Positions 4,820 to 19,806 of a stretch of 28,893 nt of DNA are shown one piece after another. The translations under genes were made by a program, and so were the position numbers. The stretch comes from a virus. How positions within the stretch are numbered: position 1 is the stretch's first letter; the number at the start of each line of letters is the position of its first letter. Where the stretch lies: positions 1 through 28,893 of IMG/VR virus record IMGVR_UViG_3300017917_000782; one strand, written 5' to 3'. A model generated the notes under the pieces. That model did no database searches. It had not been told where the DNA came from and worked only from the letters and a program-made list of their open reading frames with translations.

Positions 4820-5110
4820 TATCGTCAAATTTTTATTTGTAAAAGTCCTTAAATAAGGTCTAAAAATAAGCCATTCTTCCTTAAGGAATAGGTTTATGGG
4901 AACAAGTCTATTACTTTCCCACCACCATTGGTCACCTAACTCTAAAAACTTAGATTTTACTATAGGATCAACTATAGATCCATAGTCATATATCGTTGTC
5001 ACTGTATCATCACGATTTTGTACTATTCCAACATAATCTTGGTTGGCATAACTACATACTGTTATAAACGGGTGATTTTCACTAAGTTTTCTGAAAAATT
5101 CATTCTGCAT
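4733..5110 (-). CDS. Conserved phage protein of unknown function
   Basis: 125 aa, function not recognised. It reads as a genuine globular protein: YVGIVQN, TIYDYGSI, a WWWESNRL segment near residues 61-68, FRPYLRTF near 83-90 and a basic C-terminus (KRRSKRKSITLVKRIS). ATG 5110 is the only ATG near the start. The last 87 bases overlap the convergent DnaE-like gene, and both frames look coding there. A minus-strand late promoter (5144 to 5137) lies 27 bases upstream of its start. It is a single gene on the minus strand between + strand blocks, which suggests late expression apart from its neighbours. Confidence 0.75.
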   Translation of the reverse strand: MQNEFFRKLSENHPFITVCSYANQDYVGIVQNRDDTVTTIYDYGSIVDPIVKSKFLELGDQWWWESNRLVPINLFLKEEWLIFRPYLRTFTNKNLTILHGPVCSINELAKRRSKRKSITLVKRIS

Positions 5111-12651: not shown

Positions 12652-12972
12652 ATGCGCCTCTATGAGTTCGCTACGGACCCACTAATACCTAAACTTATTG
12701 CCGTCTCCGATCAATTAAAAAGTGATTTGGATGACGGCAGTATCCAACCTGAGATGACTTTGCAAACATTCATTGAATACTTGCAAGCATTTGGTATAAC
12801 ATTGGGTGCTAATGACTTATATAACATGATTAAAAAACCACCATTAAATCAACTAATAAGCAATATCAAGGGAAACCAGGTTGTGTTTAAAGGTTATGGA
12901 ACAATAGATCAACCTGAAGACGAGAAAAAGAAAATCGTCCAACAAATGGCAAAATCAGCACAAAAATCATGA
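12652..12972 (+). CDS. Small conserved phage protein with MRLYEF start
   Basis: 106 aa. The N-terminus MRLYEF resembles the T4 capsid-targeting leader form (MKxYxEF), as in the 8677 gene. The rest is helical: LIPKLIAVSDQLKSDLDDG, MTLQTFIEYLQAFGITLGAN, DLYNMIKKPPLNQLISNI, then IVQQMAKSAQKS at the end. Marine T4-like phages carry similar unnamed proteins next to the acidic-tailed protein, by recollection. It lies three bases after that gene and overlaps the IscA-like gene as ATGA, so it is part of the same late operon. A head-core role is possible but unproven. Confidence 0.68.
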   Translation: MRLYEFATDPLIPKLIAVSDQLKSDLDDGSIQPEMTLQTFIEYLQAFGITLGANDLYNMIKKPPLNQLISNIKGNQVVFKGYGTIDQPEDEKKKIVQQMAKSAQKS

Positions 12973-13289
12973 TAACCGCTACTGATAAAGCAGTATCAAA
13001 AATCAAGCAGCAAATCGATAAAAGAGGAAAAGGAATAGGAATACGAGTAGGAATCAAAACTACAGGTTGTTCCGGGCTTGCCTACACCTTAGAGTATGTT
13101 GATAGTAAGATTCCAGATGATTTAGAATTTGATTGTGATGGTTGTAAAATATATGTTGATCCAAAAAGTTGTCCTTATGTTCAAGGCATGACAATTGATT
13201 ATATAAGAAATGGACTGAATGAGGGTTTTGAATTTAAAAACCCTAACGAGAGAGACAGATGCGGTTGTGGTGAAAGTTTTCGAGTATAA
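12969..13289 (+). CDS. IscA/HesB-like iron-sulfur carrier protein
   Basis: 106 aa, full family length. Three ligand cysteines are in canonical places: C34 in TGCSGLAY, and C98 and C100 in CGCGESF. A-type carriers of this kind receive and pass on Fe-S clusters. The core strands (GIGIRVGIKTTGCSG, IYVDPKSC) and the YVQGMTIDYI segment are normal, so it should be active. It starts within the previous stop and is probably an auxiliary metabolic gene that helps mature Fe-S enzymes during infection. The RecB/Cas4-type nuclease downstream belongs to a superfamily in which some members bind Fe-S, but that nuclease shows no Cys cluster. Confidence 0.93.
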   Translation: MITATDKAVSKIKQQIDKRGKGIGIRVGIKTTGCSGLAYTLEYVDSKIPDDLEFDCDGCKIYVDPKSCPYVQGMTIDYIRNGLNEGFEFKNPNERDRCGCGESFRV

Positions 13290-16723: not shown

Positions 16724-16731
16724 GATAAATA
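16724..16731 (+). promoter_or_regulatory. Late promoter (GATAAATA) of leader RNA copy A
   Basis: Ten bases before the first hairpin of leader A. The predicted RNA would start about three bases before that hairpin, exactly as in copy B. Confidence 0.65.
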
Positions 16732-16740
16732 TATAATAAT

Positions 16741-16794
16741 ATTCTCATAGGGGGAATTTATGCAGTAACCCACTGCGTAGCGGCTAGAACCCGC
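16741..16794 (+). promoter_or_regulatory. Structured 5' leader RNA, copy A (three hairpins)
   Basis: Hairpin 1: ATTCTC (16741-16746)/GGGAAT (16752-16757), loop ATAGG. Hairpin 2: GCAG (16762-16765)/CTGC (16773-16776), loop TAACCCA. Hairpin 3: GCGG (16780-16783)/CCGC (16791-16794), loop CTAGAAC. An unpaired A-rich stretch with AAAGGA precedes ATG 16817. Copy B at 18461 has the same order, loop sizes and TTTATGC/GTAG/TAGAACCC sequences, with stem bases changed in pairs. Confidence 0.7.
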
Positions 16795-16816
16795 ATACAA
16801 AATAAAGGAAAAACAA

Positions 16817-17710
16817 ATGGGACGTGCTTTAAAAATTAGAAAATATCAGGGTGAGCAGGTTGTTGACCAAGGCTTCCCTAATGACGGATCTACAAATAAT
16901 GGATACGATGACAATCAGCCCGGTATCGTAGGTGGTGTCAATGAAAACTCCGATCAAATTCGTTGTGATGCAGCTATTCTTGTAAAAGGTTTAGGTACTA
17001 TCACAGCCGACACAGGAAGTGGAACTGTAACAGGTACAGGCACCCACTTTACAACTGATGCATTCCGAAGCGGTTCAAGTCAGATTTGGGTAAGTGATGG
17101 CGCAGGTGGATATACGTCATTAGGTATCTATGACAGTACAACTGACGATACAGAAATATCATTGGGTGATCCTTCTGCTGAAAACGTCACTGATAGTGCA
17201 TGGTATTATACAGCAACTGGTAATGGATCTATCGTTCGTCAAAAAGGTTCTAGAAGATTCTTAGTTGCAGGAACTACTGATGCTATTCAAGATGAATCTA
17301 TCGCCGCTGGTCAAGCATATATGATTGCTACGGTTAGTGATACTGATTGGGCGGCATTGGGTGCTGATCCTACTGCAGGACAATACGATATTTTCACAGC
17401 TACACAAGATGGCACTGGATTGACAACAAACGGTGAGGTATATCCAGTTGCCACATGTTTGTTAGTAGACTTAAATAGTCCAACAGAACCTAACACAATG
17501 AGTGTTGCAATTTATGATGATGGTGATACGTATTATGCACAGCGTTTGAAGAACAAGTTTAGTATGAACTTTGACGAACCATATGCAAATGCAAATCCTG
17601 GCGTTCAATTCTCTGCTACATTCTTTAATGATAGTGGTAATACTTTACCTGATCCATCAGCACCTGGTGATTTAGTATACACATTAGTTGGAACAGAAAA
17701 CTGGTGCTAA
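16817..17710 (+). CDS. Virion structural protein, MGRALKI family (paralogue of 18535)
   Basis: 297 aa, no named family. Starts MGRALKIRKYQ, like MGRPLKIAKAQ at 18535. The pair also shares a GTI-x-x-D-T-G segment with a G-T-x-F (residues ~60-80) and SIVRQKGSRRFLVAGTTDA (137-155) against FIVRQKGKQKYLVQGTTTG. Between them is a segment AYMIATVSDTDWAALG...FTATQDGTG that resembles a motif of marine T4-like fibre proteins. The fold is likely beta-rich. A late promoter plus structured leader precede it, and a terminator follows. Probably a virion component; its place in the particle is unknown. Confidence 0.7.
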   Translation: MGRALKIRKYQGEQVVDQGFPNDGSTNNGYDDNQPGIVGGVNENSDQIRCDAAILVKGLGTITADTGSGTVTGTGTHFTTDAFRSGSSQIWVSDGAGGYTSLGIYDSTTDDTEISLGDPSAENVTDSAWYYTATGNGSIVRQKGSRRFLVAGTTDAIQDESIAAGQAYMIATVSDTDWAALGADPTAGQYDIFTATQDGTGLTTNGEVYPVATCLLVDLNSPTEPNTMSVAIYDDGDTYYAQRLKNKFSMNFDEPYANANPGVQFSATFFNDSGNTLPDPSAPGDLVYTLVGTENWC

Positions 17711-17728
17711 TCGGTTTTCATTCTAAGA

Positions 17729-17750
17729 AAAAGCGGCGCAAGCCGCTTTT
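17729..17750 (+). terminator. Rho-independent terminator with GCAA tetraloop
   Basis: A nine-base stem AAAAGCGGC/GCCGCTTTT with loop GCAA (17738-17741). The T side is short (four T), but stem and loop are strong. It ends the 16817 transcript; a late promoter starts three bases later. Confidence 0.85.
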
Positions 17751-17752
17751 CC

Positions 17753-17760
17753 ATTAAATA
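17753..17760 (+). promoter_or_regulatory. Late promoter (ATTAAATA), leaderless type
   Basis: Four bases separate it from ATG 17765, so RNA would start at or within the start codon. It directly follows the terminator. Confidence 0.5.
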
Positions 17761-17764
17761 CCAT

Positions 17765-18445
17765 ATGATTAAATTTCGTCACCCATCTACATTAGGTCAT
17801 CTTAAAGAAGACTGGATTGAAACATATCGCAGTTTCAGTAATAATAGTTATTACGATCCAAACTATATTCACTTTAGTGATTTAGAAGTTATTAACGATG
17901 ATAGAGTTCAGCCTAGAAATTGTGTACCCATTCACCAACATTGTGATATGGAAATTTTAGGATATATCATAAACGGTCCCTGCTATCACAATGACAACTT
18001 ACACAACTATGGAGAAGTACCTAGTGGCTGTGTTCAAAAAATGAGTTCAGGTACTGGTATTTGGCACACAGAAGGTAATCTATCTGACCATCCTATTCGT
18101 TATTTGCAGATATGGTTGCGTCCTAACAAGCACAATTTTCCACCTCAATATGATGCGATGGAATTTACAAGAGAAGATAAACTAGACAATTTCTGCCCTA
18201 TCGCTAGCGATAAAGGTCCTATAGTTATACATAGTGATGCAAAAGTCTTTGCAGGCATATTCACCAAAAATTTTACATATAAACTCAATAAAACTCGCAG
18301 ATATTATGTATATATAATTTCAGGAAATGCCACAATCAATGATATTGAAAGCCCTGAATTAGGTGGATTTAGTATTGAAGATGAAGAATCACTAACAATT
18401 ACTAATCCTAATAATTCTGAGATACTGCTTTTTGACCTTCGTTGA
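17765..18445 (+). CDS. Pirin-like bicupin
   Basis: 226 aa, about the size of small pirins such as YhhW. The N-terminal cupin has the pirin metal ligands: H57 and H59 in VPIHQHCDMEI, H101 and E103 in GTGIWHTEG, with GYIINGPCYHNDN between them, equivalent to the E-G-x-x-x-H-x-D-S strand. The C-terminal cupin is shorter. Pirins bind Fe and act as oxygenases of flavonoid-like substrates or as redox-sensing regulators. In a phage the role is unknown; candidates are detoxification or a structural cupin. It sits between two paralogous virion genes and behind a leaderless late promoter, so late expression is likely. Confidence 0.83.
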   Translation: MIKFRHPSTLGHLKEDWIETYRSFSNNSYYDPNYIHFSDLEVINDDRVQPRNCVPIHQHCDMEILGYIINGPCYHNDNLHNYGEVPSGCVQKMSSGTGIWHTEGNLSDHPIRYLQIWLRPNKHNFPPQYDAMEFTREDKLDNFCPIASDKGPIVIHSDAKVFAGIFTKNFTYKLNKTRRYYVYIISGNATINDIESPELGGFSIEDEESLTITNPNNSEILLFDLR

Positions 18446-18451
18446 TAAATA
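18444..18451 (+). promoter_or_regulatory. Late promoter (GATAAATA) of leader RNA copy B
   Basis: Ten bases before the first hairpin of leader B, the same spacing as copy A. It overlaps the stop of the pirin gene. Confidence 0.65.
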
Positions 18452-18460
18452 GATAGTACG

Positions 18461-18514
18461 CTCACATACGGTGAGTTTATGCGGTACCCCGCCGCGTAGT
18501 GGAATAGAACCCAC
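18461..18514 (+). promoter_or_regulatory. Structured 5' leader RNA, copy B (three hairpins)
   Basis: Hairpin 1: CTCAC (18461-18465)/GTGAG (18471-18475), loop ATACG. Hairpin 2: GCGG (18481-18484)/CCGC (18492-18495), loop TACCCCG. Hairpin 3: GTGG (18499-18502)/CCAC (18511-18514), loop AATAGAAC. An unpaired A-rich stretch with AAGGAG follows, before ATG 18535. Stem changes relative to copy A keep pairing: GCAG/CTGC becomes GCGG/CCGC, and GCGG/CCGC becomes GTGG/CCAC. Confidence 0.7.
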
Positions 18515-18534
18515 AAATAACAAGGAGAAAACAA

Positions 18535-19806
18535 ATGGGAAGACCTCTAAAGATCGCAAAAGCGCAAGCCATACTAACAATCACAGACTCTGATGCTACT
18601 ACAGAAGAAGTAACAGTAGCTCAAGACTTATTGGATCCAGAAAGTGCAGCATATGGTGTTATCAAAGGTATGACTTTTATACCGGCATCAAGCACAGGTG
18701 GACTGACAGCTAATACAATTTATTGGATTTTACAAGTTACAGGCAATAGCACATTTACAGTTTCAGCAACAGATTTAAGTGCTAACCCAACTTTCACACC
18801 TGTAAATCTTTCAGCAACATCAGGTACAACAGTGTCTGCATCAGTTAATGTTGTAGATGCATATTTCAACAATCCAAACGGTGGTGTAGGATTCCCTACA
18901 ACAAATAGTAATACATACAGTGTTGTCGGTGGTAACACTGCAATTATTGGACCTCAAGTTCTAACTCGTGTTGCTATCGGTATTGATGGTACAGGAACAA
19001 TCTACGGTGATACTGGTAATCTAAATGTATACGGTGAAGGTACTGACTTTGCAAATACGTTGTCTGTTGGATCTGCACTTCAAGTAGCAGTTGCAAACAC
19101 TAACGGCAATACTGACTTTGTAAACATCGGATTCGTTCAAACAAACACGGGTTATATCACTGTTGCAGTAGCTAATACCAGCGCTACTGGAAATGTTATT
19201 GGTACTTCCGGTAATGCACAAACATTATTTGTAGGTGCCCCAGTTACATTTGATGCAAATACAGGTGGTTTAGTAGCTGGCACAACATACTTTGTAAAAA
19301 CTATTGCAAATGCTTCAGCATTTACCGTATCTAATACACAATATGGTGCTACAACTGCACTGACTACTGGTACTACTGCTGCCAATGCAACAATTGATGT
19401 TACTGTATTAGCAGTTGAGCCTCCAATTGATTTTACAGATGCTGCATTTATATATGCTGATGACGAAGCAGGATTTATTGTTCGACAAAAAGGTAAACAA
19501 AAGTATCTTGTACAAGGCACAACAACCGGCTTACAGGCACAGTGCTATACAGCAAATCTTGCTAATACAGCATTGACTCCAAATACAATGAATATTGTTG
19601 CTACATATGCAAACTCTGCAACACAAAATGTACAAAGTCTAAGTGACCACACAGGTGAATTGTTTACTGCAACATCAGGACCAATTGCGACTGGAAATAT
19701 TGTATTCCAAAATGCAGCTCCTGTCTTTGCTACATTTAACAGTGCAGCCGATGCAAACGCCGCAGCTGGCCAACCATACCCATTAGTAACAATTTCTAAC
19801 GCTTAA
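18535..19806 (+). CDS. Virion structural protein, MGRPLKI family (paralogue of 16817)
   Basis: 423 aa, no named family. Shares the MGR(A/P)LKI start and the (F/S)IVRQKG-x-(R/K)-(R/K)-(F/Y)-LV-x-GTT block with the 16817 protein, but has about 125 more residues. The extra part holds two similar A/T/N/V-rich units: SSTGGLTANTIYWILQVTGN...FTVS (residues ~48-80) and ANTGGLVAGTTYFVKTIANASAFTVS (~242-267), a pattern of sticky beta-rich virion proteins. Late promoter, structured leader and AAGGAG are upstream. Its place in the particle is unknown; a fibre or decoration protein is the likeliest class. Confidence 0.7.
   Translation: MGRPLKIAKAQAILTITDSDATTEEVTVAQDLLDPESAAYGVIKGMTFIPASSTGGLTANTIYWILQVTGNSTFTVSATDLSANPTFTPVNLSATSGTTVSASVNVVDAYFNNPNGGVGFPTTNSNTYSVVGGNTAIIGPQVLTRVAIGIDGTGTIYGDTGNLNVYGEGTDFANTLSVGSALQVAVANTNGNTDFVNIGFVQTNTGYITVAVANTSATGNVIGTSGNAQTLFVGAPVTFDANTGGLVAGTTYFVKTIANASAFTVSNTQYGATTALTTGTTAANATIDVTVLAVEPPIDFTDAAFIYADDEAGFIVRQKGKQKYLVQGTTTGLQAQCYTANLANTALTPNTMNIVATYANSATQNVQSLSDHTGELFTATSGPIATGNIVFQNAAPVFATFNSAADANAAAGQPYPLVTISNA

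Follow-up and report, generated by a model that had tools for sequence, protein, structure and literature searches.

The window analyzed here comprises the 28,893 nucleotides of the IMG/VR virus record IMGVR_UViG_3300017917_000782. It holds two late-type leaders, copies A and B, which share a series of three hairpins and lie in front of two paralogous genes. This arrangement raises the question of what these leaders are, which viruses carry them, and how they may act on the gene that follows. The features of the locus are as follows.

16724..16731, + strand: T4-type late promoter GATAAATA of copy A (TAAATA upstream in 111/112 relatives chosen by gene start)
16741..16757, + strand: hairpin 1 of copy A, AUUCUC/GGGAAU, loop AUAGG (Rfam alignment, folding)
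16759..16779, + strand: hairpin 2 of copy A, UAUGCAG/CUGCGUA, loop UAACCCA (Rfam alignment, covariation)
16780..16794, + strand: hairpin 3 of copy A, GCGG/CCGC, loop CUAGAAC (Rfam alignment, covariation)
16741..16819, + strand: freshwater-2 RNA copy A with Shine-Dalgarno AAAGGA (16804-16809) and AUG (RF02980, 67.0 bits)
16817..17710, + strand: gene A, MGRALKI..., 297 aa, probable virion protein (open reading frame, blastp family; AlphaFold mean pLDDT 77.7)
18444..18451, + strand: T4-type late promoter GATAAATA of copy B (pattern search)
18460..18476, + strand: hairpin 1 of copy B, GCUCAC/GUGAGU, loop AUACG (Rfam alignment, folding)
18478..18498, + strand: hairpin 2 of copy B, UAUGCGG/CCGCGUA, loop UACCCCG (Rfam alignment, covariation)
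18499..18514, + strand: hairpin 3 of copy B, GUGG/CCAC, loop AAUAGAAC (Rfam alignment, covariation)
18460..18537, + strand: freshwater-2 RNA copy B with Shine-Dalgarno AAGGAG (18522-18527) and AUG (RF02980, 66.2 bits)
18535..19806, + strand: gene B, MGRPLKI..., 423 aa, paralogue of gene A with 30% identity (open reading frame, blastp family)

Identity of the two leaders

Both leaders are real structured RNAs of a catalogued family, freshwater-2 (Rfam RF02980). Copies A and B match its covariance model with E values of 2.2e-08 and 3.2e-08, well above the gathering score of 49.9 bits. The alignment runs end to end in both copies, over model positions 1-84 and up to the ATG at 16817 or 18535. Hence, the element belongs to an already known family, and the statement of the initial annotation that no named motif has this form is wrong. 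The window copies share with RF02980 the same sequence, all helices, the loop bases, the ribosome site and the AUG, and we found no difference in the element itself. In particular, alignment and folding place the conserved UUAUGC, CGUA and UAGAAC over three consecutive hairpins in both copies. The leaders also occupy a cis-regulatory position directly 5' of a coding start, the Shine-Dalgarno site and AUG forming the 3' end of the model, and the Rfam catalogue enters freshwater-2 as a cis-regulatory RNA. The literature searched contained no mention of its carriers or target, and no paper there names the family. To our knowledge, freshwater-2 had previously come from metagenomes only, with no organism or gene assigned to it. 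The new finding is its placement: in large T4-like phages, this RNA forms the 5' leader of a single late gene, the product of which is probably a head-surface protein. The carriers, the late promoter, the target gene, and the joint duplication of leader and gene are likewise new.

Folding and Rfam alignment both recover the three hairpins in the order first described, with predicted energies of -18.0 and -23.0 kcal/mol (z of -1.8 and -2.7) for A and B. The hairpin blocks do start 10 bases past GATAAATA, but hairpin 1 of copy B begins at 18460, one base earlier than it had been placed. Two segments previously read as conserved linkers, TTTATGC and GTAG, are mostly paired and are absorbed into a 7-bp hairpin 2 stem (UAUGCNG/CNGCGUA), which joins 16759-16765 to 16773-16779 in copy A and 18478-18484 to 18492-18498 in copy B. 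The conserved unit spans the hairpins and extends through the Shine-Dalgarno site to the AUG. Taken on its own, GATAAATA is not enriched in the record (7 occurrences against 5 for the reversed pattern); the promoter, RNA and gene together are near-universal among relatives. Among the relatives, hairpin 1 can be minimal, helix 2 can be replaced, and the score can fall just under the gathering score (L057, 48.0 bits; L024, 45.3 bits).

Selection on the RNA structure

Relatives were gathered in several ways, including searches for a helix 2/3 pattern, for nothing but the ribosome site with the gene start, and for a coding motif within the protein alone. The last two selections leave the RNA free, and both sets were aligned with a covariance model built from 54 leaders. 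In the gene-start set, 98.5% of the helix 2/3 cells are paired, a figure to be read knowing that the aligning model already contained these pairs, and 10 of the 11 pairs have changed on both sides. There are 136 double-change cells in this set, against 26.6 after shuffling and 8-23 in slid controls, which do not fully remove relatedness. The coding-motif set, to which the same limits apply, gave 99.1% paired cells, both-side changes in 8 of the 11 pairs, and 99 double-change cells versus 23.1 when shuffled. The earlier suggestion that the stems are under selection as RNA, drawn from two copies, is thus strongly supported by double changes at 4-5 times the shuffled number with 98-99% of the cells paired. 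Many matches with covarying stems, the outcome named at the time as support, were likewise obtained.

In some leaders the replacement of helix 2 is drastic, the L241 type having an unrelated yet still paired sequence. A U-G wobble in helix 2 is retained in 56/62 leaders of the gene-start set and 50/53 of the coding-motif set. Neither DNA nor an antisense transcript would keep such a pair, and the sense RNA is therefore the molecule under selection. This result bears on the idea of a DNA-level element, such as an extended promoter, a terminator, or a recombination cassette that shuffles late genes. The leader does follow the late promoter directly, and it has been duplicated together with its gene in the window and in three other loci (L010, L149 and L224). 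However, the conserved wobble and the RNA-type covariation speak against a role as DNA; moreover, the same gene family follows in every case and is not shuffled, and the terminator is a separate structure upstream of the promoter. We consider this explanation the most improbable of those weighed here.

Hairpin 1 is variable in sequence. Nevertheless, a stem of at least 4 bp ending beside UUAUG is present in 206/228 leaders, compared with 42% in shuffles, and in mid-length leaders its own two sides match (57 against 26.6 with swapped sides). Conservation extends to unpaired bases, namely the UAGAAC of the hairpin 3 loop, whose final A, A and C are nearly invariant, and the C's of the hairpin 2 loop.

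Several further pairings were considered and rejected. A GUC/GAC terminal closing pair in long hairpin 1 variants is conserved in sequence and shows no covariation above swaps (35 vs 31.6). Pairing of UAGAA/AGGAG in the hairpin 3 loop with UUCUA/CUCCU in the linker, which would form a pseudoknot, reached a count of 35 against 32.4 with loops swapped (maximum 36), and it is absent from both window copies. An outer helix around all three hairpins (GAGCC/GGCTC in L080 and L022) is, by eye, not kept in the neighbouring L077. Two variants deserve a separate mention. Six leaders (L241, L245, L257, L288, L293 and L400) have an unrelated paired helix 2 beside an unchanged hairpin 3. In eight others (L240, L244, L249, L251, L265, L267, L277 and L298), hairpin 3 has the loop GGAGAAC, which resembles a Shine-Dalgarno site, and a CUCCU linker is complementary to both this loop and the Shine-Dalgarno site itself.

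Carriers and the downstream gene

All carriers found are virus contigs from IMG/VR, of up to 525 kb, and several are of jumbo size. A scan with the helices only hit at least 120 virus stretches, and among the matches listed every one has an ATGG(G/C) start shortly downstream. The association with late promoters, proposed from the two window copies, was strongly supported by the TAAATA found in all but one of the 112 distinct upstream regions picked by gene start. When genes were selected by the coding motif, the RNA was present in 49/52 complete new genes by a strict pattern, or 50/52 counting L400 with its variant helix 2. Each of 20 virus contigs of 79-525 kb has one strong match (56-83 bits), the next best reaching about 22 bits or less. 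With a single strong match on every long contig, freshwater-2 is no general-purpose device of late mRNAs.

The two exceptions, L374 and L416, have the gene with a TAAATA promoter and no RNA; in L416 a second paralogue does carry it. Around 6442 and 8160 of this locus, the MGNALKIR paralogue has the promoter only, and the MGRPLKIA paralogue has promoter and RNA. The RNA can thus be gained or lost per paralogue. The isolated jumbo phages Atu_ph07 and Phosso also have probable homologues of the gene behind ATAAATA promoters, with short leaders that lack the RNA. Together with the two metagenomic loci, these phages indicate that the element is dispensable. Blastn with three leader types found no carrier among named phages, covariance-model matches in PA5oct and Atu_ph07 were background (at most 22 bits), and Phosso gave no such match. 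Six helix-pattern matches in GTDB bacterial genomes all lack the promoter, the ribosome site and the gene, and are therefore due to chance.

The RNA is tied to one gene family. Both window leaders precede paralogous MGR(A/P)LKI genes, as had been noted, starting at 16817 and 18535. The 285 downstream products begin with MGRPL (194), MGRPI (51), MGRAL (26), MGRPV (11) or close variants, and all 250 distinct proteins of at least 60 aa fall into one blastp cluster. Codon choice varies within the N-terminal MGR(P/A)(L/I/V) residues, so it is the peptide that is conserved. A beta-rich domain with a confidently predicted fold (pLDDT 89) makes up the protein core. No solved structure in the PDB resembles the protein by profile or by fold, and neither window protein has a match in PHROGs or Pfam. 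The significant BFVD matches, which include two Atu_ph07 proteins, are to uncharacterized or unnamed phage proteins. The homologues in Atu_ph07 and Phosso are weak tblastn matches (E of 0.9 and 0.07) whose alignments begin at residue 1; by fold, there is also a match to a 326-aa protein of Atu_ph07, which is as long as AUZ95257.1.

Genomic position gives a further clue. A T4-type major head protein gene lies at most three genes upstream in 120/246 loci, often accompanied by scaffold and protease genes. Where the head gene is the nearest neighbour, a hairpin resembling an intrinsic terminator separates it from the late promoter in 62/65 loci, and the leadered gene is thus probably a separate transcription unit. 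In the window, the paralogues sit among tail-fibre, tail-sheath and other structural genes. Judging from gene position and late promoter, the leadered gene probably encodes a virion protein of the head surface. The expectation that such leaders would lie upstream of virion genes stood in that the major head gene is near in about half of the relatives, but the RNA belongs to one gene family and not to virion genes generally.

Some neighbours were unexpected. Between the two leadered paralogues of the window lies a pirin/quercetinase-like cupin gene (PF02678, PF17954; 17765-18445), odd company for virion genes. In three loci, manA RNA (RF01745) stands between the head gene and freshwater-2: L185:4502-4706 (78.6 bits), L036:5288-5494 (54.7 bits) and L024:1141-1341 on the minus strand (49.8 bits; threshold 55.2). 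A glutamine riboswitch aptamer occurs in L036 as well, at 5003-5050. The manA RNA is a structured leader-type RNA of T4-like phages (PMC2864571). Apart from lying just upstream of freshwater-2 in these loci, it is an unrelated Rfam family of 192 positions that is associated with other genes.

The 5' end and the initiation site

Transcription from T4 late promoters starts about one helical turn past the TATA box (PMC2988020), so that the presumed 5' end falls no more than a few bases from hairpin 1. With the transcript start inferred in this way, the first predicted pair lies at most 4 nt from it in 90% of 228 leaders, versus 57% when the 5' segment is shuffled; other late-type leaders of the same phages also pair near the 5' end in 74% of cases. 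The initiation site is mostly open among the leaders, with a ribosome site near the consensus AAGGAGAAAACAAAUG. This site had been described as lying outside the element. Although folding predicts no pairing there in either window copy, the site belongs to the conserved unit, and the linker of 84-88/228 leaders, about one third, holds a CUUC/CUCC-type block able to pair with the Shine-Dalgarno site. These complementary linkers suggest translation control, as judged from sequence. Since the Shine-Dalgarno site is fixed, such pairing cannot give covariation.

The complementarity of linker and ribosome site in this subset would fit a metabolite- or ion-sensing riboswitch, as would a conserved structure with conserved loops before one gene. 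Yet the RNA consists of three small, simple hairpins with no junction or supported pseudoknot, the gene is of virion type and not metabolic, and folding reveals no evident expression platform in the window copies, all of which makes a riboswitch improbable. Similarly, the roughly 55 nt of compactly structured RNA at the 5' end could be processed from the leader or act in trans as a small RNA. The ribosome site and AUG are, however, conserved within the unit at short distance, and no terminator was seen after hairpin 3 in the leaders read; we give this origin a very small chance.

A much stronger contender is a constitutive device acting with no regulator, in which the hairpins would block 5'-end-dependent decay, leave the A-rich ribosome site open, and so sustain high output of one abundant late protein. 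The predicted sealing of the 5' end in nine of ten leaders and the open, near-consensus initiation site are both consistent with it, as is a gene set behind its own promoter and the terminator of the head gene. Works cited in PMC3997798 report that bacterial mRNA is stabilized by 5'-terminal stem-loops, which also supports this reading. The ompA/papA-type stabilizing stem-loops resemble freshwater-2 in having a hairpin near the 5' end and an open initiation site. We know of no such stem-loops that form gene-family-specific structured motifs with fixed loop bases. A generic stabilizer, moreover, would be expected on the major head gene as well, yet long contigs have a single strong copy. The fixed UAGAAC loop and the conserved helix 2 sequence exceed what a barrier needs, and an anti-Shine-Dalgarno linker would lower translation in about one third of the leaders. 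On balance, we regard a stabilizer and enhancer as almost as likely as an operator. The roles suggested at the outset, namely mRNA stabilization, translation enhancement and protein binding, are still the main candidates.

A gene-specific operator as the preferred explanation

The best explanation, to which we assign a probability of roughly 45%, is that freshwater-2 is a cis-acting 5'-terminal leader of T4-like phages that serves as a gene-specific translational operator for one virion-associated gene family. Demonstrated parts of this view are the identity of the RNA, the late promoter that each leader has to itself and from which it is transcribed, the selection on the sense RNA, and the link to one gene family, MGR(P/A)(L/I/V)-. 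Hairpin 1 would seal the 5' end of the mRNA within a few bases of the transcription start and protect it, and the coaxially stacked hairpins 2 and 3 would present fixed loop bases (UAGAAC, and the C-rich loop of hairpin 2) to a protein. This protein would most likely be the product of the gene itself or another late assembly protein, and its binding would set the access of ribosomes to the adjacent open, A-rich initiation site. As a result, the supply of the probable head-surface protein might be matched to assembly. We infer both the end protection by hairpin 1 and the recognition of the hairpin 2-3 core; recognition is favored over a plain barrier because of the restriction to one gene and the fixed loop bases. 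A narrower version, in which a head-surface or other capsid assembly protein of these tailed dsDNA phages binds the core and thereby tunes its synthesis to capsid production, is doubtful. Its logic would be like that of ribosomal-protein feedback and of the coat-protein operators of RNA phages.

The nearest working precedent for the proposed operator, by analogy, is that of gene 32 in T4 and RB69, in which a 5' fold in a phage leader is followed by an unstructured initiation region (PMC535899). Freshwater-2 is predicted to share this arrangement of a 5'-terminal fold and a less structured initiation region. The two differ in that the gene 32 operator consists of a pseudoknot and UUAAA repeats and controls an ssDNA-binding protein, whereas freshwater-2 has three hairpins and precedes a probable head-surface protein. 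A pseudoknot of the gene 32 type found no support in freshwater-2, the loop-linker pairing being the one rejected above (35 vs 32.4 swapped; absent in the window copies). Knowing that freshwater-2 follows late promoters of T4-like phages and precedes a single virion-type gene family gives this RNA a defined target and a testable function. If its core is bound by a protein, synthesis of a virion protein would be controlled at the level of RNA, in a way that is unusual for dsDNA phages.

Finally, two other regions of the window attracted our attention. Positions 23-1806 contain tandem small open reading frames of 72-171 aa that by eye seem interrelated (WCxxNLG, ...F..W..W endings), and the open reading frame at 12969-13289, with its CGCGESF end, looks, also by eye, like a phage-borne A-type iron-sulphur carrier.
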